Shown piece by piece: positions 3,828 through 28,060 of a DNA stretch of 32,737 bases. The translations under genes and the position numbers were made by a program. This DNA comes from a virus. The notes under the pieces were generated by a model. That model made no database searches and was not told where the DNA came from. It saw nothing but the letters and a program-made list of their open reading frames with translations. Numbering within the stretch: position 1 is the stretch's first letter; each line of letters begins with the position of its first letter. The stretch spans positions 1-32,737 of the IMG/VR virus record IMGVR_UViG_3300035199_000200; one strand, written 5' to 3'.

Positions 3828-3843
3828 TTGAGTTTAAACTCAA
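3828..3843. promoter_or_regulatory. 16-bp palindrome TTGAGTTTAAACTCAA, operator-like copy 1
   Basis: This is a perfect self-complementary 16-mer lying exactly between the stop of the 43-residue gene (3847) and the ATG of the hub-like gene (3827). It is one of seven copies in the window. There is no recognisable -10 box near this copy, so it could act as an operator that blocks elongation (stoperator-like) or as a hairpin in the mRNA. Confidence 0.75.
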
Positions 3844-6731: not shown

Positions 6732-6981
6732 CGCTTTCCACTGCCTCTACCATCTCTTTCCAAGCAGATACTTGGTCAGGATGCATCTGAGTGGCATCCT
6801 GATTGTGCTGTTCTCTGGCGCTCACTAATAACCTGTAATCCATGATGTTCTTGATGGTTGTCCAGTCCTCTTCTAATACCTGACTTGGCAGGCAACCAAA
6901 GGCCTCACATATCACGCTGATGGTAGCGTAGCCTGGCTGCTGGTCATCTCCAAGGATGTATCTCCCAAGGCTTCTAAGTCT
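6724..6981 (-). CDS. Tail assembly chaperone T extension, reached by -1 frameshift
   Basis: This reading frame is -1 relative to the upstream chaperone gene and remains open from the slippery A7 (6981-6987) to a stop at 6724. After the slip the ribosome would read RLRSLGRYILGDDQQPGYAT, then ISVICEAFGCLPSQVLEEDW, and end VEAVESDG, giving about 85 residues added to about 134 (219 in total). The only internal start is a GTG without a good ribosome site, so independent translation is unlikely. In lambda-like phages the GT fusion binds the tape measure and recruits tail tube subunits. The arrangement G, GT, tape measure supports this strongly. Confidence 0.8.
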   Translation of the reverse strand, partial: RLRSLGRYILGDDQQPGYATISVICEAFGCLPSQVLEEDWTTIKNIMDYRLLVSAREQHNQDATQMHPDQVSAWKEMVEAVESDG

Positions 6982-7382
6982 TTTTTTCTTTCCTCAGCGC
7001 CCTCACCCCCACCAGTGGCATTTACCAGCCAGAGCAGTTCCTCTGAAGACAGACCTTCCAAAACGTCTGGGCGATTGTAGGGCTGTTCCATCTTCTCGCC
7101 CATCAGATTTGTCCAGTTCCACTTGATGACTCTGCGAGATAATTCCTGGCATAAATCTGTCAGGCTTTGCCCTAAAGTGCTACCCTCTCCAGAATTGTTC
7201 TGAAGCCTTGAAAGGTTCATCACCTCCCTCACTGTCATCACTGGCATCACCTCAACCCACTCCCCTTCATGGACATAATAGGGAGTACCTGGGGAAGTGA
7301 TTTCACCATCTTCCACCACCTGCCCAACATTGATTGCACAAGCATCTGATAGCACTTTTTGAGTTGGTATCTTGGGCTTCAT
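6912..7382 (-). CDS. Tail assembly chaperone G-like protein
   Basis: The 156-residue acidic protein begins MKPKIPTQKVLSDACAIN and lies between the tail tube genes and the tape measure gene, the invariant position of the tail assembly chaperone. A strong ribosome site (AAAGGAG) lies about 8 nt before ATG. Residues 127-137 (GEGAEERKKDL) are encoded across a run of seven A. The -1 frame continues for a further 85 codons into a plausible protein, so both short and long products are expected. A central segment (VIKWNWTNLMGEKMEQPYNRPDVLEGLSSEELLWLVNA) resembles phage proteins of this role. The sequence family itself is not recognised by name. Confidence 0.8.
   Translation of the reverse strand: MKPKIPTQKVLSDACAINVGQVVEDGEITSPGTPYYVHEGEWVEVMPVMTVREVMNLSRLQNNSGEGSTLGQSLTDLCQELSRRVIKWNWTNLMGEKMEQPYNRPDVLEGLSSEELLWLVNATGGGEGAEERKKDLEALGDTSLEMTSSQATLPSA
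6981..6987 (-). promoter_or_regulatory. Programmed -1 ribosomal frameshift slippery site A AAA AAA
   Basis: On the minus strand the zero-frame codons read AGA AAA AAA GAC, giving the heptamer A AAA AAA followed by G. This is a perfect X XXY YYZ slippery sequence. Slipping back by one base enters a frame that is open for 85 codons to 6724. The location at the 3' end of the gene between tube and tape measure genes is diagnostic for the G/GT system. Confidence 0.82.
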
Positions 7383-7631
7383 AGAGCCTCTCCTTTGCTA
7401 ATATTTATACCCATGTACTGTGATACTAGATATACCATTGAGCCTCTGCATATCAGAATGTAATACTAATTATTATCGAGGTCAGTTTTTTGATACCCTT
7501 TCCTTGCGCACCTAAGGCGTTTTAAGAGGGGTATATTTTCTAGCTGAACAAGCATTGGCAAGCCTTGGAAACTCAGCACCTCTATTTTCAGTACCTTTGT
7601 TCTGATTCTGGGCTTCTGTAGACAGGGTGAA
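7383..7631. other. Leader region of the chaperone gene, largely non-coding
   Basis: This stretch of about 250 bases separates the tail tube genes from the chaperone gene. On the minus strand it begins after a strong hairpin (7632-7666) and ends with the AAAGGAG ribosome site before 7382. A copy of an AGAGGCTC-N4-GAAGCCC repeat spans the start codon at 7374-7393, and the related AGAGGCTC octamer also occurs near 7436-7443. On the plus strand it contains the gene remnant at 7516-7605. A TATAAA appears close to the chaperone start but without a convincing -35 box, so no promoter is claimed. Confidence 0.5.
7516..7605 (+). pseudogene. Plus-strand remnant related to the small ORF at 27422-27559
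   Basis: This plus-strand open stretch runs from just after a TAA (7513) to a TGA at 7603-7605, has no start codon, and reads GVLRGVYFLAEQALASLGNS before diverging. Its FLAEQALA..GN core matches FLAEQALARSGN in the minus-strand ORF at 27422-27559. The two share 22 identical nucleotides (7541-7562 versus the complement of 27501-27522). The flanking differences are mainly synonymous (Leu TTA/CTA, Gly GGT/GGA, Asn AAT/AAC), as expected of protein-coding descent. I read it as a decayed fragment. An RNA or attachment-site role for the shared element remains possible. Confidence 0.45.
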
Positions 7632-7672: not shown

Positions 7673-8080
7673 TTATCCTCTGGTTGGTGCAGCAGCATCC
7701 AGAGCAGCAGAACCGCCGTTATGACGGAACGATGCGCTGTATGTTATTGGCCCACCAACAGTGCTGGAAATCGAGTAGGAAGTGACGATGGCAAATCCGT
7801 TATACCCTGTCGAGCCATCTGGTTCAAAATCCCATTCCTCGCCTTCCAAACCCAGTTCATTGAAGATAGTTATATCCCCAGCGCCTGCTGCCAGGTCAGC
7901 GAATCCACTGACATCCACAGTGGCTGTTGGCTTACCTGCCAGGAAGTTTTGATAGGTGTCAGCAAAGGCAGTCACATCAGCTTCTGGCACTGTGAAGTTA
8001 AGGGTTACTGAATTTAACTCGTCCTCTAGCGCTACGCTATCGAAACTAAAGTCAGCATCCTTTCCATGAGTTCTAGCCAT
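7673..8080 (-). CDS. Tail tube (major tail) protein paralogue, third copy
   Basis: The 135-residue protein starts MARTHGKDADFSFDSVALED. It contains LNSVTLNFTVPEADVTAFADTYQNFLAGKPTATVDVSGF, typical of TP901-like or gpV-like tail tube proteins in siphoviruses. It is closely related to the next two genes upstream (8093 and 8534), all starting MAR and sharing the VTAFADTYQNFxAGK block at about 35-50. The ending (GGPITYSASFRHNGGSAALDAA) is the usual last beta strand. It is followed immediately by a strong hairpin. It would polymerise into the tail tube around the tape measure, or cap it. Confidence 0.82.
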   Translation of the reverse strand: MARTHGKDADFSFDSVALEDELNSVTLNFTVPEADVTAFADTYQNFLAGKPTATVDVSGFADLAAGAGDITIFNELGLEGEEWDFEPDGSTGYNGFAIVTSYSISSTVGGPITYSASFRHNGGSAALDAAAPTRG

Positions 8081-8092
8081 CTTGGTTCCTCC

Positions 8093-8524
8093 TTATGAAA
8101 CCGCTCTAGTAGTAGAGCCTGAGCATTGAAATGTTGCGCTGTAAGTAGCTGCCCCACCAACTGGAAGGTTGATGGTGTAACTGCTGCAAATCGCTCCAGT
8201 CAAACCAGAGGAGGTGCAGGTGTATTCAGGGCTGTTGCTATCTGGCCCTGCTCCATCTGGGTCAAACACCAGAGTCTTTGGCCCACTGGTCAGGGTGAGG
8301 TGGTCAAATATAGTGGCATCCCCCTGGCTTGCAGCCATGTCGAGGCTCCCTGATATATCGAATGACACACCTTTCTTTCCAGCAATGAAGTTCTGGTATG
8401 TGTCACTAAAAGCTGTAACCTCACTCTCTGCAACTGTGGCATTCATAGTGATGCTACTGAGTTCATCCTCGATTGCCACGCCATTGAATGAGAAATTGGA
8501 ATCCTTGCCGTGAGTTCTCGCCAT
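8093..8524 (-). CDS. Tail tube (major tail) protein paralogue, second copy
   Basis: The 143-residue protein begins MARTHGKDSNFSFNGVAIED, with SEVTAFSDTYQNFIAGKKGVSFDISG at about 33-58 and a terminal GGAATYSATFQCSGSTT. Its first 60 residues are very similar to those of the 135-residue paralogue downstream. The middle differs (SPEYTCTSSGLTGAICSSYT), suggesting a different surface loop. A stop-to-start gap of 12 nt and a ribosome site (GGAGG) show co-translation. With three paralogues in a row, I cannot say from sequence which forms the bulk tube; this one or the 7673 copy is the most likely. Confidence 0.8.
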   Translation of the reverse strand: MARTHGKDSNFSFNGVAIEDELSSITMNATVAESEVTAFSDTYQNFIAGKKGVSFDISGSLDMAASQGDATIFDHLTLTSGPKTLVFDPDGAGPDSNSPEYTCTSSGLTGAICSSYTINLPVGGAATYSATFQCSGSTTRAVS

Positions 8525-8533
8525 GCAATCCTC

Positions 8534-9277
8534 CTATGTGACGTAGTAGCCGAAGCCAACTATCAATTTGAAAGAGCGGCTACCTGCTCCGCCGATTGTT
8601 ACCACAACTCGCCAGATATTATCTGACCCTGCTGGGCCTGTGGCAGTTTGAGTCTCAAAAGTAGCCCCACTACCTTGATTCAATTGAGTGAACGTCAATC
8701 GGTCAGTCGGGCTGCTGTAACCACTTGTATCTGACTGGATTTTTACGTCTAGGGTGTTGTTGCCAGAGCCACCAATCTCAATCAGTCGCAAGATTCCAAT
8801 TATCGTGTTGGTGTTTGCGATTGTCCCAAGTGTGTACTGAGTGCCATTGGCAGAAGAACTGTCTGTGGCATATCTCAAAATGGTAGAACGGAATGGGGCA
8901 GATGCGCCCTGCCAGGTGACGTTACAAGCGATGGCATCGCCTATGGTGCTGACCCTTGGGGATGAACTGATGTTAGTAGCGCCCTCATACCCAAACACCC
9001 CATCACTGATGCCACCTGGGTAGATGCCAACCCTGCGATTGGTAGCAGTCAAATCAGTGAACATCTCACCATCATAATTAGGGCTGGCAGTTGACCAGAG
9101 GCCATTCACATTGAATGTGAATGTAGGCTTGCCTTGTATAAAGGTCAGGTCAGTATCAGCAAAGGCAGTAACCTCTGCTGGAGTCTCTGCGATGCTCAAA
9201 TCCATCGAGTTGCTGACTCCACTGAAATCGAACTCATCGACCAATAGACCTGCTGACTTTGCGCTGATTCTAGCCAT
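8534..9277 (-). CDS. Tail tube protein paralogue with C-terminal extension, first copy
   Basis: The 247-residue protein has the same N-terminal module as its two neighbours (MARISAKSAGLLVDEFDFSG ... AEVTAFADTDLTFIQGKPTFTFNVNG, residues 1-60). It then has a longer domain: after about residue 105 a beta-rich, jelly-roll-like segment (FRSTILRYATDSSSANGTQY ... GSRSFKLIVGFGYYVT). The central part looks like a carbohydrate-binding or immunoglobulin-like decoration carried on a tube subunit. It may be a minor tube protein, a tube initiator or a decorated tail subunit. It overlaps the upstream gene by 8 nt. Confidence 0.75.
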   Translation of the reverse strand: MARISAKSAGLLVDEFDFSGVSNSMDLSIAETPAEVTAFADTDLTFIQGKPTFTFNVNGLWSTASPNYDGEMFTDLTATNRRVGIYPGGISDGVFGYEGATNISSSPRVSTIGDAIACNVTWQGASAPFRSTILRYATDSSSANGTQYTLGTIANTNTIIGILRLIEIGGSGNNTLDVKIQSDTSGYSSPTDRLTFTQLNQGSGATFETQTATGPAGSDNIWRVVVTIGGAGSRSFKLIVGFGYYVT

Positions 9278-9723: not shown

Positions 9724-10120
9724 TTATTCTGTACATCCCCCCAACATGCTGGAATATCTTCCCATTCAAATCTTCTACCAGATAGAAATCAGATTCCCTG
9801 CGACACATCAGCAAGCTGTGGCCTGTGATACTGAGAGAGGCATCCTGCATGGCAGAGTCTATCTGGGTGTCTATGTCTGCTGCTGTCTTGGGCCATCTGC
9901 TCTCATCAATGGCCTTTATCATGTACAAGGCTGTCCCTCCCCTGCCTGTATAGGAAAAGTAGTCATCTACCTTGCTCATGGCCTGGAACACCACGAATGG
10001 GGCGCTGGTGCTTTCTGGGGCCATAAGATTGAACACCCCTCCAAGCGCCTCATTGGTCACTGCTGCGATATTCAACTTATCGAATATCGCTGTGTCCAGA
10101 TTTACTCTTAGATTAGCCAT
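9707..10120 (-). CDS. Tail terminator-like protein (DUF3168-like)
   Basis: The 137-residue protein begins MANLRVNLDTAIFDKLN. It contains the family-like features SAPFVVFQAMSKVDDYFSYTGRGGTALYMIKAID, KTAADIDTQIDSAMQDA and a final EDLNGKIFQHVGGMYRIIAD strand. Such proteins (gpU-like/DUF3168) form the hexameric ring that ends the tail tube and joins it to the head. The position between the HK97-gp10-like gene and the tube genes agrees. The start is coupled to the preceding stop (TAATG). Confidence 0.82.
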   Translation of the reverse strand: MANLRVNLDTAIFDKLNIAAVTNEALGGVFNLMAPESTSAPFVVFQAMSKVDDYFSYTGRGGTALYMIKAIDESRWPKTAADIDTQIDSAMQDASLSITGHSLLMCRRESDFYLVEDLNGKIFQHVGGMYRIIADES

Positions 10121-10488
10121 TAGAAAGGAAACATCTGGTCATCAGATAGAGCCTCTTTGAAGCGAGGGGCTTCTTGTTCTAAAGCAGGAATCATGTATGG
10201 CCTAGCTGCCATGAAGCGAGTGCCAAATTCTATGAAGGGCGCATATTCTGTGGTAGGCCCAATCTTCTGACTGAAGGATGGAGTGCCTGGGTCAACAAAG
10301 ATGCTGTTCCTAGTCGCCCCAGTATCCACAGCATCTTGGTCAGTCATGCGCTGCTTGGAATCTTTCTCGATATTGCGAGCAGCTATCTGCACCACTGTTT
10401 TAATCTTGTCATCAAATTGATTGTTGAAGTGACTCAATTTCTCTATATCAACTTTCACTGAGACATTCATTTCAAATTTATCAGCCAT
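10120..10488 (-). CDS. HK97 gp10-like tail completion protein
   Basis: The 122-residue protein begins at the internal ATG (MADKFEMNVSVKVD) rather than the GTG at 10515, because the sequence before it is a terminator-like hairpin and T tract. It has the family pattern IARNIEKDSKQRM...DTGATRNSIFV...YAPFIEFGTRFMAARPYMIPALE. The protein helps join tails to heads or completes the tail. No good Shine-Dalgarno precedes the ATG; AAGGG lies about 13 nt upstream inside the hairpin, so translation may depend on RNA folding. It is the first gene of the tail operon. Confidence 0.82.
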   Translation of the reverse strand: MADKFEMNVSVKVDIEKLSHFNNQFDDKIKTVVQIAARNIEKDSKQRMTDQDAVDTGATRNSIFVDPGTPSFSQKIGPTTEYAPFIEFGTRFMAARPYMIPALEQEAPRFKEALSDDQMFPF

Positions 10489-10501
10489 AAAAACAAAAAG
10501 A

Positions 10502-10531
10502 CCCTTGACCCTCACAATGAGGTATCAAGGG
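10502..10531 (-). terminator. Rho-independent terminator/attenuator in the tail-operon leader
   Basis: On the minus strand a stem CCCTTGA...TCAAGGG with an inner CTCA/TGAG stem is followed by TCTTTTTGTTTTT and then directly by the ATG of the tail completion gene. It lies about 70-100 nt downstream of the promoter at 10607-10635. A terminator placed between promoter and first gene suggests attenuation or antitermination, or the production of a short leader RNA. Confidence 0.72.
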
Positions 10532-10597
10532 CTTCTATGAGCCTCTAAATATGTATAGCTGGCGCTCTAGGCACTCTGGGCTTCAAGGAGCCTCTTA
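10529..10597 (-). repeat. Two direct repeats in the tail-operon leader
   Basis: Minus-strand copies TAAGAGGCTCCTTGAAGCCC (10578-10597) and TTAGAGGCTCATAGAAGCCC (10529-10548) agree at 17 of 20 positions. A third related copy spans the start codon of the chaperone gene (7374-7393). The upstream copy contains a ribosome site and TTG that would open a 13-codon frame (MKPRVPRAPAIHI) ending in the second repeat, so it could be a leader peptide. It could equally be a relic of a duplicated gene start. Confidence 0.55.
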
Positions 10598-10606
10598 GCT
10601 ATCGCC

Positions 10607-10635
10607 ATTATAATTTGAGTTTAATCTCAAATCAA
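10607..10635 (-). promoter_or_regulatory. Promoter for the tail operon, operator in its spacer
   Basis: On the minus strand TTGATT (10635-10630) is separated by exactly 17 nt from a consensus TATAAT (10612-10607). The spacer is almost entirely the palindromic operator (10615-10630). This predicts transcription starting near 10600, towards the tail genes. It would restart transcription after the bidirectional terminator at 11105-11147. Confidence 0.75.
10615..10630. promoter_or_regulatory. Operator-like palindrome copy 2 (TTGAGTTTAATCTCAA)
   Basis: This copy has one mismatch to the 16-bp consensus but longer arms (ATTTGAG/CTCAAAT, 10613-10632). It occupies the space between the -35 and -10 boxes of the minus promoter and lies 20 bp from the plus promoter, so one bound protein could control both directions. 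Confidence 0.75.
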
Positions 10636-10643
10636 TCCCTGCT

Positions 10644-10689
10644 AAAGTGTTGACAAACCTTGACAGGGTGTGATAAACTTCGTTTATCA
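10644..10689 (+). promoter_or_regulatory. Promoter of the lone plus-strand gene, with inverted repeat
   Basis: The motif AAAGTGTTGACAA (10644-10656) includes a consensus -35 TTGACA (10650-10655). A -10-like GATAAA follows at 16 nt spacing (10672-10677). The -10 overlaps an inverted repeat TGATAAAC-TTC-GTTTATCA (10671-10689), which may be an operator or early RNA hairpin. A ribosome site (AGAGGAG) precedes the ATG at 10710. Confidence 0.68.
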
Positions 10690-10709
10690 AGTAAAGAGGA
10701 GTCGCCAAA

Positions 10710-11090
10710 ATGAAAATTAAATTTGAACAAACCACCTGCAAGCGATGCCAAGGCAAAGGAGGAATAGATTCTTTCCTGCATGTTGATGGTGGGCGTTGCT
10801 TTAGCTGTGGCGGTAGCGGTAAGAAACTCACCAAAAAGGGTCTTGCCGAAAAGAAGGTCTATGTAGAAGCGCATACCATTCAGGCCAGTGAAGTTAAACC
10901 AGGCATGACCATCATAATTGACCGCTGCGAATATCAGGTTTTAGCCGTAGAAACAACTCCCGATAGCTATAGCGTTTTCGGAAATGCAGTAGCAATAACC
11001 TTAGACGGATACTGCCACACCGATTTTCAAGGACGCACAAGCAACGTGGTTGGAGTATGGGAATCTAACAAAATTCGCCTCAGTGAATAA
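10710..11090 (+). CDS. Protein with DnaJ-type zinc knuckles; the only plus-strand gene
   Basis: The 126-residue protein has CKRCQGKGG (10-18) and CFSCGGSGK (30-38). These are two CxxCxGxG knuckles like those of the DnaJ cysteine-rich domain, here as a single zinc site. It is followed by a small beta domain with VKPGMTIIIDRCEYQVLAVE (about 63-82). There is no J-domain, so it is not a DnaJ chaperone. The gene is monocistronic, opposite to all neighbours, has its own promoter and operator-like sites and ends at a bidirectional terminator. This resembles a moron or an independently regulated gene. Its function is unknown; nucleic-acid or protein binding is the likeliest role. Confidence 0.85.
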   Translation: MKIKFEQTTCKRCQGKGGIDSFLHVDGGRCFSCGGSGKKLTKKGLAEKKVYVEAHTIQASEVKPGMTIIIDRCEYQVLAVETTPDSYSVFGNAVAITLDGYCHTDFQGRTSNVVGVWESNKIRLSE

Positions 11091-11104
11091 CAAAAACCAA
11101 TAAG

Positions 11105-11147
11105 AAAAAGAAAAGGGCTGGGGAAACACCTCAGCCCTTTTCTTTTT
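11105..11147. terminator. Bidirectional rho-independent terminator
   Basis: A near-perfect 19-nt stem (AAAAAGAAAAGGGCTGGGG and its partner, with a single G-T pair) and an AAACA loop are flanked by A and T tracts on both sides. It lies 14 nt after the plus gene stop and overlaps the last codons of the minus-strand gene at 11146. It therefore ends transcription from both directions and isolates the head operon from the tail operon. Confidence 0.9.
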
Positions 11148-11367
11148 ACGAATCCCCTATAGGAACCTCTACAAAGCCACCTTGCCCATCTCCTTTCAGT
11201 CTCACCTTGGCATCTTCTGCTGCAAAGGTACTAACCACTCCACAGCGTCTGCACTTCACCTCTACCTGGCTATTACCCTCAAGGCGAACCCTAGCCAGCA
11301 GGTGCTTACATTCCTCTCTCCTGCATCGAGCCTCAACCCATAGGGCTAGACCTGTCGAGCCTGACAT
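11146..11367 (-). CDS. Com-like small zinc-ribbon protein
   Basis: The 73-residue protein has C-x4-C (CRREEC, about 15-20) and CRRCGVVSTF (about 39-48) joined by a short beta segment (KHLLARVRLEGNSQVEVK). This resembles Mu Com-type zinc ribbons (CxxC...hxIxCxxC), which in Mu activate translation of the mom modification gene. It is the last gene of the head operon, overlapping the head-closure gene by 22 nt, and its stop lies in the bidirectional terminator. Regulatory RNA binding is suggested by the family only. Confidence 0.72.
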   Translation of the reverse strand: MSGSTGLALWVEARCRREECKHLLARVRLEGNSQVEVKCRRCGVVSTFAAEDAKVRLKGDGQGGFVEVPIGDS

Positions 11368-16013: not shown

Positions 16014-16042
16014 ATTATATGAAGATTTGAGTTTAAACTCAA
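16014..16042 (-). promoter_or_regulatory. Promoter of the capsid operon overlapping an operator
   Basis: On the minus strand TTGAGT (16042-16037) lies 17 nt from a perfect TATAAT (16019-16014). The -35 is part of the 16-bp palindrome. The predicted start is near 16007, leading into the scaffold, decoration and capsid genes. A bound repressor would cover the -35 element. Confidence 0.75.
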
Positions 16043-16069
16043 TAACCTTAATGACATGTCATATGTCAT
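16027..16069. promoter_or_regulatory. Operator-like palindrome copy 3 (perfect) plus TGACATGTCA element
   Basis: The perfect TTGAGTTTAAACTCAA (16027-16042) is followed after 9 bp by TGACATGTCATATGTCAT (16052-16069), containing the palindrome TGACATGTCA and a further TGTCA half-site. A similar pairing occurs at the small terminase gene. The TGACAT element overlaps the stop codon of the 41-residue gene. Confidence 0.7.
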
Positions 16070-16191
16070 TTGCCACGTTTGCTCATAGCGCCTCTATTCC
16101 CTCTCAAGCGCTTGTCCCTAGGTGGGCCAGTCTTTACCCTGCCCTTGGGTTTGTAGCCAACTCCCTTGTTGACTGCTTTCTTGTCTGGCAT
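16066..16191 (-). CDS. Very small basic protein (41 residues)
   Basis: It begins MPDKKAVNKGVGYKPKGRVK and ends RGAMSKRGK; about one third of residues are Lys or Arg. It has a near-perfect ribosome site (AAGGAGG, 5 nt before ATG), and its ATG directly follows the TAG of the zinc-ribbon gene. The stop TGA lies in the TGACATGTCATATGTCAT operator-like element. Small basic proteins in packaging modules can bind DNA or RNA. No family is recognised. The strong ribosome site is the main evidence that it is real. Confidence 0.68.
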   Translation of the reverse strand: MPDKKAVNKGVGYKPKGRVKTGPPRDKRLRGNRGAMSKRGK

Positions 16192-18783: not shown

Positions 18784-20213
18784 TAGACCTCTTCAACCTC
18801 CTCGACCTCACCAGCAGCACCACCAAATCCATTCCCTGCATTGAAGGTTCTGAGTATCTCAGCGCCTATGTTGGTATCTGCTGACCTCTCCTGTAACTGG
18901 TCATCATCCATCTGGTCTATCTCTTCCTGGCTATAGCCCATCTCTCGCCACAATTGGTGCTTACTTATCCCTAGTTCTGCCTTGGACTTCAGGACTTCCA
19001 TGTGGGCCTGCTCATTTCGAGTCTCAGGGTCATCCCACTCCATCTCAAGTGTCACATCAGCAAGGTTAGCAACCCTTGGCCCAAAGGCTTCCTGTACCCT
19101 GAGGGCAACCATAAGGCAATCTTCCCAGGAGTTGCCAAAGTTGACCTGTCTCTGTTTGGCCTTCTGGACAAGGCCACTCTCAGCAGTCTTTAAGGATTCC
19201 CCTGATGGCGCACCTCCCATGATTTGGAACAGGTGCTGTGGAGTCCTGCTTATCCCAGCGATATGCTGAACAAATGATTCAATGGTGCGCAAAGCCCCAT
19301 CGACATTAGCCCCTTCCCATTGTCCAACCTGTCCACCAGAATCCAACTCTGTATGGAACTCTGTGACAGAGCCAGGCATGATGTCGAGCCTGCTGCTGTT
19401 ATGGTCGATGTCTACTGTGTACCTTTGAGGGAATGCCAAGGTGTCCAGTATCATCACAAGGTCAATCAGGGTCTTATTCAGCAAGTCCTGCATAGGGATG
19501 ATGTTATCTATCTCTGAAAGGCCAAAGTCCTCACCCAATGGCTTGTTCTTAAAGTGGATGATTGGAACTCCTATGGGTTCTCCATTCCCCATGACCCAAG
19601 GAGTGGGCCACACATCATCATCCATGTCCATATAGGGCGACCAAACACCACCTCTCGCCACATACTTCTCAACCCTGTCTGGATAGTAGATGTTCAACCT
19701 TGTCTCTGGCTCATCCCCCAGGTTAGGGTATTGCAGCCACTTCTTACTGGCCCAGTCTATCTGTCTGGTTGTCTCGCTGTAGTGAGGCACTATCATCTCA
19801 GCCATCTGGTGAGTCCATCTGGGGCGCTCATTCGCAGCATCCCAGTCACAGAGCAGATAACTATCCCCAACCATCACAGTGTCTGTGTGAATGACAACCT
19901 GGGTATAGTCTGACCTGTTCTTTTGCCATAAGTCCCAGGCCCATTCAGAAACAAGGTCATTGTTGCTGCCTATACCAATGATTCTGAGTCTTTCAGCCAA
20001 GGACTCAACAACCACATTGCAATAGTTATCCCTGAAGGTAAGCCTGGGAGGTAGGAACTTCTTGAGCCTATCTGTGAGCGCTGTGTCATGTTCGCCATAG
20101 TAGTAGCGCCTGGATAGTTCATACCCATCGCGCCTTTCATCAATCTGGTGCTGTATCCATCTCATCAGCGATTCGCTGACAGGGTTAACATTTGAGTTTA
20201 AACTCAATACCAT
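18783..20213 (-). CDS. Portal protein (SPP1 Gp6-like family)
   Basis: The 476-residue protein begins MVLSLNSNVNPVSESLMRWIQ and contains YELSRRYYYGEHDTALTDRLK, FRDNYCNVVVESLAERLRIIGI and PIIHFKNKPLGEDFGLSEIDNIIPMQDLLNKTLID. A later segment reads GISRTPQHLFQIMGGAPSGESLKTAESGLVQKAKQRQVNFGNSWEDCLM. These are the wing, stem and tunnel-loop features of the phage_prot_Gp6/SPP1-like portal family that forms the dodecameric DNA channel. It follows the large terminase and precedes MuF, the classical order. The tail ends GEVEEVEEV. The perfect palindrome copy 4 lies in codons 3-8 at the start. Confidence 0.92.
   Translation of the reverse strand: MVLSLNSNVNPVSESLMRWIQHQIDERRDGYELSRRYYYGEHDTALTDRLKKFLPPRLTFRDNYCNVVVESLAERLRIIGIGSNNDLVSEWAWDLWQKNRSDYTQVVIHTDTVMVGDSYLLCDWDAANERPRWTHQMAEMIVPHYSETTRQIDWASKKWLQYPNLGDEPETRLNIYYPDRVEKYVARGGVWSPYMDMDDDVWPTPWVMGNGEPIGVPIIHFKNKPLGEDFGLSEIDNIIPMQDLLNKTLIDLVMILDTLAFPQRYTVDIDHNSSRLDIMPGSVTEFHTELDSGGQVGQWEGANVDGALRTIESFVQHIAGISRTPQHLFQIMGGAPSGESLKTAESGLVQKAKQRQVNFGNSWEDCLMVALRVQEAFGPRVANLADVTLEMEWDDPETRNEQAHMEVLKSKAELGISKHQLWREMGYSQEEIDQMDDDQLQERSADTNIGAEILRTFNAGNGFGGAAGEVEEVEEV
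20192..20207. promoter_or_regulatory. Operator-like palindrome copy 4 (perfect), inside the portal start
   Basis: TTGAGTTTAAACTCAA encodes codons 3-8 of the portal (L-S-L-N-S-N). There is no visible -10 box in either direction, so it is more likely a roadblock or stoperator site than a classical promoter operator. Confidence 0.7.
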
Positions 20214-21680: not shown

Positions 21681-22176
21681 TCACAATCCCAATCATAACT
21701 TCTGCTTGGATTGGCCCACCACTTGGGCCAGTTATCTCTGTCTGTGTCCTGCCAAGGGAATCGCCTAGCGCCCTTAGTTCAACATCTGTAGCTATCTTCA
21801 GCATCTGGGCAAGGACTGGCACAGGTATCTCATCTGCTGCCATGTTCTCAAGGCGCTGTAAGACCTTTTCCTGTACTTCCCTGGCTAATAGTGCATGTCT
21901 GTCCCTTGCAGCGTAGAGTTCGCTCATATGGCGCTCTCTAATCAGCCTGTCCAACTCTTGGTCATAGACCCTGCATCTATTGACCCAGTTCCAGCGACTT
22001 GACCATCTATGGATTAAAGCAGTCGATTTCCCTAACTCTTGGACTACCTTCCCTATACTTCTTATGCCTAAACCTAAATCACGGTAAATGACAAAAGCAG
22101 CAAAGGCTGTCGCTGTCTCATTCTCTTGCTGTTCCCAAGGCTCGATTGAGTTTAAAGTCAAATTATGACATGTCAT
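21592..22176 (-). CDS. terS: Terminase small subunit-like protein
   Basis: The 194-residue protein has an EPWEQQENETATAFAAFVIYRDLG start (about 12-35) and a helix-turn-helix RSIGKVVQELGKSTALIHRWSSRWNW (about 40-65). A coiled oligomerisation region follows (YDQELDRLIRERHMSELYAARDRHALLAREVQEKVLQRLENM), then an acidic C-terminus. This is the DNA-recognition subunit pattern found immediately upstream of large terminases. Its first codons (MTCHNLTLNS) are built from the TGACATGTCA and TTGACTTTAAACTCAA elements, and no clear Shine-Dalgarno precedes the ATG. The start may therefore be reached from a leaderless mRNA or be wrong by a few codons. Confidence 0.8.
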   Translation of the reverse strand: MTCHNLTLNSIEPWEQQENETATAFAAFVIYRDLGLGIRSIGKVVQELGKSTALIHRWSSRWNWVNRCRVYDQELDRLIRERHMSELYAARDRHALLAREVQEKVLQRLENMAADEIPVPVLAQMLKIATDVELRALGDSLGRTQTEITGPSGGPIQAEVMIGIVNDLIKDPQSRIALDHLAQRLEGDTSSDSS

Positions 22177-22183
22177 ATGGCAT
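22146..22183. promoter_or_regulatory. Operator-like palindrome copy 5 plus second TGACATGTCA element
   Basis: TTGAGTTTAAAGTCAA (22146-22161, one mismatch) lies 4 bp from TGACATGTCATATGGCAT (22166-22183). The two-element arrangement repeats that at 16027-16069 with closer spacing. It covers the first codons of the small terminase gene and the bases before it. Confidence 0.65.
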
Positions 22184-24284: not shown

Positions 24285-24297
24285 TTGTCAACACTTT
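24285..24297 (-). promoter_or_regulatory. Conserved AAAGTGTTGACAA element, second copy
   Basis: On the minus strand AAAGTGTTGACAA, which contains a consensus -35 TTGACA, lies at the end of the 24298 gene and upstream of the small gene starting at 24256. The same 13-mer occurs at 10644-10656 (plus) and 25394-25406 (minus). No good -10 box is seen here, so it may be another type of site. Confidence 0.55.
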
Positions 24298-25105: not shown

Positions 25106-25339
25106 TTAGACTCCTTTTGAAAGGTAGTATTCTCTGGGTTTGTCACCAAGGTATATGTGATACTCAAATTTCTCAGTGGATTTGATGCTGACTACCCTGA
25201 AAGACCTGCCTGCCTGATACCTTTCCTCTAAAGCCTCTAGGTAGTCCATCCCTGCTTGTTTGGCCTCTTCACGACTGCCATACTGCTCTTTGCTGTAGCC
25301 TATCCTGAGTGAATTAGGTGCCATCTTATTTATTACCAT
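25106..25339 (-). CDS. Small early protein of unknown function
   Basis: I place the start at ATG 25339 (MVINKMAPNSLRIGYSKEQY) because TAGGAG lies about 7 nt upstream; a longer frame from 25390 has no such site. The 77-residue product has a basic alpha/beta character (GSREEAKQAGMDYLEALEERY, then FRVVSIKSTEKFEYHIYLGDK). It is the first gene downstream of the operator and AAAGTGTTGACAA element at 25394-25429, so it is probably under that control. Confidence 0.65.
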   Translation of the reverse strand: MVINKMAPNSLRIGYSKEQYGSREEAKQAGMDYLEALEERYQAGRSFRVVSIKSTEKFEYHIYLGDKPREYYLSKGV

Positions 25340-25393
25340 CCTGTGACTCCTACCTTGATTTGATGAAGTAAGACTAACATAGCTTGCCAAGTA

Positions 25394-25429
25394 TTGTCAA
25401 CACTTTGCAGAAATTGACTTTAAACTCAA
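25394..25429. promoter_or_regulatory. AAAGTGTTGACAA element next to operator palindrome copy 6
   Basis: On the minus strand TTGAGTTTAAAGTCAA (25414-25429) is followed by TTTCTGC and AAAGTGTTGACAA (25394-25406), which carries a -35-like TTGACA. The arrangement matches that before the plus-strand gene at 10710. The stop codon (TGA) of the methyltransferase overlaps the palindrome. A weak -10-like TATGTT is too close; the true -10 is uncertain. Confidence 0.6.
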
Positions 25430-27625: not shown

Positions 27626-28060
27626 TCATATCTCCCAGACTGATATCTCAAGCAAATCCTCCTTGGCTTTTTCCTTCTTTCCTGGCCCTCTCTGGTACAC
27701 CCATCTATCATCGAACCAGATGGATTTGTTGGCTGCATCCTCCACAGCCTTCTCAAGATTTCCCAGGTCAGACCTATGCGCCATTGGCCCAGATACTGAT
27801 ATGGCACAGCCAAGGGGAACCTTCCCAAAGGGTTCCAACTTCTCTTTCTTCATCATCAATGTCAGGCAGTCCCTGAGGTCTGCTTGGTTGGCGATGTACT
27901 CCCTGGCGTACTTGCCATGATAGTCGCCCCTCCAGCGAGTCCTGCCAGTCATCCTGACATAAGCCCTGACATACATCCAGAGTTTGATGGAGAGATGGCG
28001 CTTGCCATCCTTCTCCCAGTGCTTCACTTCCCAAATCTTATTTTTCATTTTTTTTACCAT
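27626..28060 (-). CDS. RusA-like Holliday junction resolvase
   Basis: The 144-residue protein has the RusA signature HRSDLGNLEKAVEDAANKSIWFDDRWV (about 95-121): D98, N101, K104, D108 and D117/D118. These are positions that bind metal and DNA in RusA-family endonucleases. It would resolve branched DNA during replication or prepare packaging substrate. The length is close to the usual 120-145. The ATG at 28060 lies inside the long palindrome at 28058-28089, and the next ATG (28048) is an alternative. Neither has a good ribosome site. Confidence 0.85.
   Translation of the reverse strand: MVKKMKNKIWEVKHWEKDGKRHLSIKLWMYVRAYVRMTGRTRWRGDYHGKYAREYIANQADLRDCLTLMMKKEKLEPFGKVPLGCAISVSGPMAHRSDLGNLEKAVEDAANKSIWFDDRWVYQRGPGKKEKAKEDLLEISVWEI

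Follow-up and report, generated by a model that had tools for sequence, protein, structure and literature searches.

A conserved leader RNA with Com-type hairpins precedes a neck gene in an uncultivated tailed phage

The linear viral record IMG/VR IMGVR_UViG_3300035199_000200 comes from an uncultivated tailed phage; its whole length of 32.7 kb (32,737 nt) was analysed and is called the window below. Between a minus-strand neck gene and a small plus-strand gene, two promoters stand back to back with a palindrome beside them, which raises the question of what is controlled at this locus, and how. An earlier note had taken the arrangement for a compact two-way decision module, in which one protein bound at 10615-10630 would switch both promoters. 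The best explanation of the region is instead that three features are stacked in it: an operator-bearing late promoter, a leader RNA and an inserted counter-transcribed cassette. Our overall reading, drawn from sequence comparison and held with a probability of about 0.72, is that a post-transcriptional Com-type circuit controls virion assembly genes. The nearest relatives at the locus are L084, whose neck1 protein is 85% identical, and contig 3300030392_000728 (L004/L085), with 78%.

The minus promoter (10607-10635, minus strand) is composed of TTGATT at 10635-10630, a 17-nt spacer and TATAAT at 10612-10607. Transcription from it is predicted to start near 10600-10602, where the leader RNA begins. 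Promoter boxes found by consensus alone are at chance level (4 in 2.5 kb against 3.7 expected); since consensus matching cannot tell boxes from chance, the promoters were judged by conservation, and through it and their recurrence in the sequences compared they become credible. The stretch made of the minus promoter, the palindrome and the leader is identical at 138 of 147 positions in L084 and L085, against only 66-80% identity at third codon positions of the flanking com and neck1 genes. The TTGATT-17-TATAAT promoter of the earlier note, with an operator-like palindrome (TTGAGTTTAATCTCAA, 10615-10630) in its spacer, was borne out by this conservation, and an operator within the spacer is supported by the same comparison.

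L084 and L085 have the minus promoter and the palindrome but no plus gene. Com runs there straight into the minus promoter (GGGGATTC then TTGATTTGAGGTTAAACTCAAATTATAAT), its stop codon overlapping the minus -35. Compared with this empty site, the window carries an inserted, counter-transcribed cassette of about 514 bases at 10636-11149 (ends approximate), consisting of the plus promoter, a zinc-finger gene and a bidirectional terminator. Because the two relatives keep the minus promoter and palindrome without the plus gene, the promoter pair is best read not as the decision module it was taken for, but as a by-product of cassette insertion just 5' of the minus -35. What the relatives conserve is the minus promoter with its operator, not the divergent arrangement, which is, to judge from them, recent and an accident of insertion.

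The cassette gene (10710-11090, plus strand) encodes a small zinc-finger protein with a weak Anti-TRAP-like match below the cut-off and no homologue in the viral contigs searched. It is followed by the bidirectional intrinsic terminator at 11105-11147 (-28.9 kcal/mol, z -7.5). As for the plus promoter, the TTGACA at 10650 and a perfect 7-bp inverted repeat over the -10 (GATAAAC-ttc-GTTTATC, 10672-10688) stood as previously described. The proposed TTGACA-16-GATAAA register gives way to TTGACA-18-TAAACT with an extended TG (10650-10679, plus strand), which is the register common to the other copies of this promoter. The module recurs at 25406 (minus strand), partly at 24297 (minus strand) and twice in L004 (773 and 1267); its closest paralogue, the promoter at 25.4 kb, lacks the inverted repeat. 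Viral contigs scanned for the plus-promoter pattern gave 66 matches, mostly taken as chance. We also note a promoter family of the form AAAGTGTTGACAA...CTTGNCA common to small genes (window 24286-24297 and 25395-25406, minus strand; L004 773 and 1267, plus strand), and a TTGNCA repeat 10 bp past the -35 recurs in most of its copies.

Phage morons are extra genes that sit between neighbouring late genes and bring a promoter and a terminator of their own. The cassette has its own predicted promoter and terminator and is missing from the relatives at the same place. Moron cassettes (for example PMC3573128) have the same build; unlike them, the window cassette is counter-transcribed, ends in a bidirectional terminator and lies just 5' of a promoter predicted to be able to restart the late operon. 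A comparable counter-transcribed cassette is found in the L004 contig at 7700-8060 (minus strand), with a homologue of the window gene 25106-25390 and the same types of promoter and terminator, inserted just 5' of another palindrome-bearing promoter. From the insertion sites found, both cassettes thus precede a promoter that would restart the late operon, and we infer that they are tolerated because the adjoining promoter can do so. A direct repeat of 8 bp, AAATGACA, borders the L004 cassette on both sides and is single in the window (16050-16070); either target duplication or recombination at short homology may have produced it. At the same junction as in the window, L313 has another insertion: an extra HNH-type-endonuclease-like reading frame (640-1360) between com and the leader and neck1.

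Control of the two promoters by one regulator at 10615-10630 is unlikely. The promoters and the palindrome do exist, and the palindrome lies near two other cassette-type promoters too, but it has six further copies in the window and is kept in relatives that lack the plus gene. Its distance from the cassette promoters, moreover, varies: it ends 19 nt 5' of the plus -35 at 10.6 kb, with a spacing of 13 nt at 25.4 kb in the window and 47 nt in L004, which makes fixed dual control improbable. The recurring neighbourhood of palindrome and cassette might nonetheless have some effect on the plus promoter.

A structured RNA and a terminator, both overlooked in the earlier note, separate the minus promoter from the next gene downstream. 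The leader RNA spans 10489-10602 (minus strand), between the Com-like gene and neck1. A search with an alignment of the com protein led to 51 loci. The 25 distinct com leaders studied all have a Com-like zinc-finger gene on their 5' side and contain C(N)2-3GA hairpins of at least 4 pairs. Altogether they hold 51 Com-type hairpins, against 2.5 in shuffles, and this loop is the commonest of 64 types tested. The window leader scores 50.3 bits (E=2.4e-13) with the covariance model, a value that is not independent because the window sequence helped to build it. In the window the model has three matches: the leader, its third hairpin and the start of a probable chaperone gene. Rfam 15 gave no match at the gathering threshold for the window or its relatives, the window yielding chance-level hits only.

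The leader begins with a three-way junction (10555-10602, minus strand) of a closing stem P1 and two hairpins. P1 is AUAGCU/AGCUAU in the window and CCGCC/GGCGG, CUAUC/GAUAG, AGCC/GGCU or CCACC/GGUGG elsewhere; it was assigned by hand in most sequences and is weaker or interrupted in a few. H1 (10579-10592), GGCU-CCUUGA-AGCC, has a Com-type hexaloop, and H2 (10562-10574), GUGC-CUAGA-GCGC, a Com-type pentaloop that matches CC(N)2GAG exactly. A third hairpin, H3 (10530-10543), GGCU-CAUAGA-AGCC, follows on the same strand, its 3' arm overlapping the base of the terminator. Across an alignment of 22 sequences the C, G and A of the loops never vary, and the H1 and H2 stems covary: 19 cells are double-changed against 5.1 in shuffled alignments (0/500), and the signal is lost when partners are slid. 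The isolated window junction folds into the three-way structure but is no stabler than shuffles (z 0.02), so the case for the junction rests on covariation. Conservation, covariation, motif identity, overlap and insertion are all read directly from the sequences. In L253 (2737-2786), a Com-like reading frame runs through the leader and places H1 and H2 inside coding sequence.

The leader could in principle be an independent, trans-acting small RNA without any cis switch, running from the promoter at 10607-10635 to the terminator at 10501-10532. It would have its own promoter, with a terminator just 5' of neck1, in the window, L084 and L085. We consider this improbable: the leader always lies between com and neck1, and in those more distant relatives that were examined the minus promoter and palindrome were not seen, with the leader still present. 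Identity of the loops to the Com target, together with a start-codon hairpin elsewhere in the window, also points to protein-mediated cis control.

A candidate for that protein is encoded just upstream. The Com-like gene (11146-11367, minus strand) specifies a 73-residue CCCC zinc finger that matches phrog_6417, a translational regulator. Its similarity to the profile of Com proteins (Mu, B3, Chuche, Phipami28, JD024 and Mcat1) is significant by hhalign (96%, E=3.9e-9, 39 columns). Scores against PF10122 stay below the gathering cut-off of 22.9 bits, with 15.2 for the window protein and 21.1 for the best member of the subfamily, and the first cysteine pair of the window protein is Cx4C, not CxxC. 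No solved structure was found for the protein, and the cultivated phages searched contained neither this subfamily nor the fused finger described below. Among genome contigs, the Com search returned one distant Com-like protein, with no matching leader seen: it lies in a Candidatus Kaiserbacteria MAG (L281, 5001-5108) and is above the Pfam cut-off (25.1 bits).

Com is known from work on mom, the antirestriction gene that it regulates. Com of phage Mu binds and selects CC(N)2-3GAG in a hairpin loop, next to which a structure conceals the start of mom (PMC6483171). The window resembles this system in having a small CCCC zinc finger encoded just 5' of its target, C(N)2-3GA loops, and beside the Com-type hairpin a structure that hides the start signals of the target. 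It differs in that the predicted targets are tail-completion and probable tail chaperone genes rather than a DNA modification gene, that two to three hairpins occur, in a covarying three-way junction, that the leader holds a true intrinsic terminator, and that the protein forms a separate, Cx4C subfamily. In the cultivated Mu-like phages B3, Chuche, Phipami28 and JD024, com is followed by the target as in the window; their targets are different, being methyltransferase or Mom-like genes. Under the same hairpin rule, a pentaloop and hexaloop pair lies 5' of the target gene in B3, Phipami28, JD024 and Mcat1, the first three of which thereby share the C(N)2-3GA pair of the window. Mu has one hairpin and Chuche none of at least 4 pairs; the cultivated com phages together have 9, against 0.7 in shuffles.

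The Com-like protein is thus the expected ligand of the leader hairpins, as predicted from these likenesses. A host protein or another phage protein might bind them in its place. We regard this as quite improbable, given that the loop matches the SELEX motif of Com, that its adjacency to com recurs in two phage groups and that the same loop pair is present in cultivated com phages.

The predicted target of the leader is the tail completion or Neck1 gene (10120-10488, minus strand; phrog_5, E=1.9e-20; PF04883). An intrinsic-terminator hairpin at 10501-10532 (minus strand; -19.5 kcal/mol, z -3.0), with equivalents in relatives, covers its probable ribosome-binding site, and the U tract (10489-10500) is directly 5' of its start codon. 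Most leader versions keep this order: the junction, the third hairpin, then the terminator, whose U tract ends at or near the start codon of neck1. In neck1 leaders the end of the terminator 3' arm, AAGG- or GAGG-like, is the only evident ribosome-binding site; because the 3' arm holds it, the terminator hairpin can block both elongation and initiation. A Com-type hairpin, where one stands beside the terminator, overlaps the terminator base with its 3' arm. In each of the eight cases computed, imposing the last Com hairpin costs 6-13 kcal/mol and unpairs the base of the terminator, and as computed structures the binding hairpin and the terminator are mutually exclusive. In some clades the hairpin beside the terminator is not Com-type. 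In L313 and L339 the ribosome-binding site is not sequestered, so control of termination and of translation may weigh differently between phages.

We propose that the leader RNA is transcribed from the minus promoter, and in relatives also by readthrough from com, and that the Com-like protein would then bind its two or three C(N)2-3GA hairpins. Binding would pay the cost of 6-13 kcal/mol and open the terminator base, which would favour readthrough and translation of neck1, much as Com opens mom mRNA in Mu. That the effect should favour neck1 follows from the overlap of the last hairpin with the base of a terminator covering the ribosome-binding site; we infer Com binding, the direction of this and every other effect, and the working of the promoters and operator. 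Antitermination of the LicT/SacY type uses a hairpin that overlaps a terminator and, when bound by protein, excludes it. The leader shares this exclusion, and differs in the unrelated protein family and in its Com-type loops.

A second predicted target lies further downstream. The window has three copies of the hairpin in its strict form, always on the coding strand (shuffle mean 0.09): as H1, as H3 and at 7375-7388 (minus strand), GGCU-CUAUGA-AGCC, where the loop contains the AUG of gene 6912-7382 (minus strand). This gene has the major tail genes on one side and the tape measure on the other; from that position only, and with no family match, it is called a probable tail assembly chaperone. 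The start-codon hairpin is kept across the com-bearing clade, with the loop variants CUAUGA, CCAUGA and CAUGA and, as a compensatory change, the stem GGUU/AACC. Distant homologues in which no com was detected lack the hairpin, as does one com-bearing group, L312-L314. Com bound at this hairpin would compete with the ribosome and block the start, and regulation of the chaperone would presumably be downward. Nearby, at 7673-9277, three successive genes have a similar start sequence and are apparently duplicated; two of them match major tail proteins.

In a second phage group (L150, L339, L342 and L346), a head protein ends in a Com-like finger (e.g. FRCVGCNRLLGRQVVTGTRIMCRHCKSER) and the same hairpin, overlapping a terminator, lies 5' of a prohead protease gene, so named from its own sequence. 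Because Pfam searches with such short fingers are unspecific, the resemblance of the head-protein finger rests on its motif. The odds seem about even that Com-like zinc fingers are a general class of phage RNA regulators timing virion assembly by binding C(N)2-3GA hairpins. These would work as antiterminators ahead of neck or prohead protease genes and, on tail chaperone genes, as clamps over the start codon, and Mu com/mom would be one branch of the class. Literature searches found no report of structural genes under Com-like control.

The Com-like protein and its predicted RNA target lie within the head-to-tail gene cluster of an uncultivated phage group. If our reading is true, the two would form a post-transcriptional circuit that sets the order or dosage of virion assembly. 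The leader would then represent a new family of structured RNAs, one for which a ligand is predicted, and the two-hairpin signature of Com targets would be shared with Mu-like phages that can be cultivated.

As to the palindrome, the site TTGAGTTTAAACTCAA is a perfect 16-bp palindrome with 7 copies in the window, each with at most 1 mismatch at constrained positions. Shuffles, searched with up to 3 mismatches, have 1.6 on average, and 0/100 reach seven. For six of the seven centres a start codon lies no more than 80 nt away, where the expected share is 23.5%. Apart from the copy in the minus-promoter spacer, they lie at 3828-3843, directly 5' of a start codon; at 16027-16042, in the scaffold-gene promoter TTGAGT-17-TATAAT, which is kept in L004 (TATACT); at 20192-20207, over portal codons 3-8; at 22146-22161, near the small terminase start; at 25414-25429, upstream of another cassette-type promoter; and at 30739-30754, near the start of gene 30476-30820. 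L004/L085 have conserved, equivalent copies at the genes for small terminase, portal, scaffold and neck1, and several further viral contigs hold multiple copies. From this distribution the palindrome looks like a dispersed operator network rather than a local device. No repressor was found among the searched proteins of the window (a linear record) and the palindrome contigs, and a search for HTH proteins or repressors near palindromes in other contigs gave none.

Stoperators of mycobacteriophage L5 are asymmetric 13-mers oriented with transcription and dispersed over the genome, many of them near gene starts (PMC9283540). The present site shares with them the many dispersed copies, often near gene starts, and differs in being a 16-bp palindrome with no repressor gene found. 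Membership of the L5 type was dropped because the window site is symmetric, and so was a role of the palindrome as a leader RNA hairpin, since the site is upstream of the predicted start. It is very improbable that a repressor with these dispersed operators is the main device and the RNA hairpins incidental terminators: the seven copies, their closeness to start codons and the multi-copy contigs suit such a network, but it leaves the covariation and the invariant loop bases unexplained, and the leader is conserved in relatives without the palindrome.

A second recurrent palindrome, (T)ATGACATGTCAT(A), occurs in the window at 16051-16062 and 22164-22177 and in the relative L004 at 1610 and 8065; it adjoins two TTGAGTTTAAACTCAA sites. 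The window gene at 28883-30157 (minus strand) encodes an AAA_25 helicase-like protein whose C-terminal domain resembles sigma-70 region 4. Finally, an intergenic gap holds a perfect 32-bp palindrome, CATGACATTTTTATATATATAAAAATGTCATG, at 28058-28089, and a 16-bp one at 28106-28121. Their half-sites resemble ATGACAT, and they may mark an origin or a control region.
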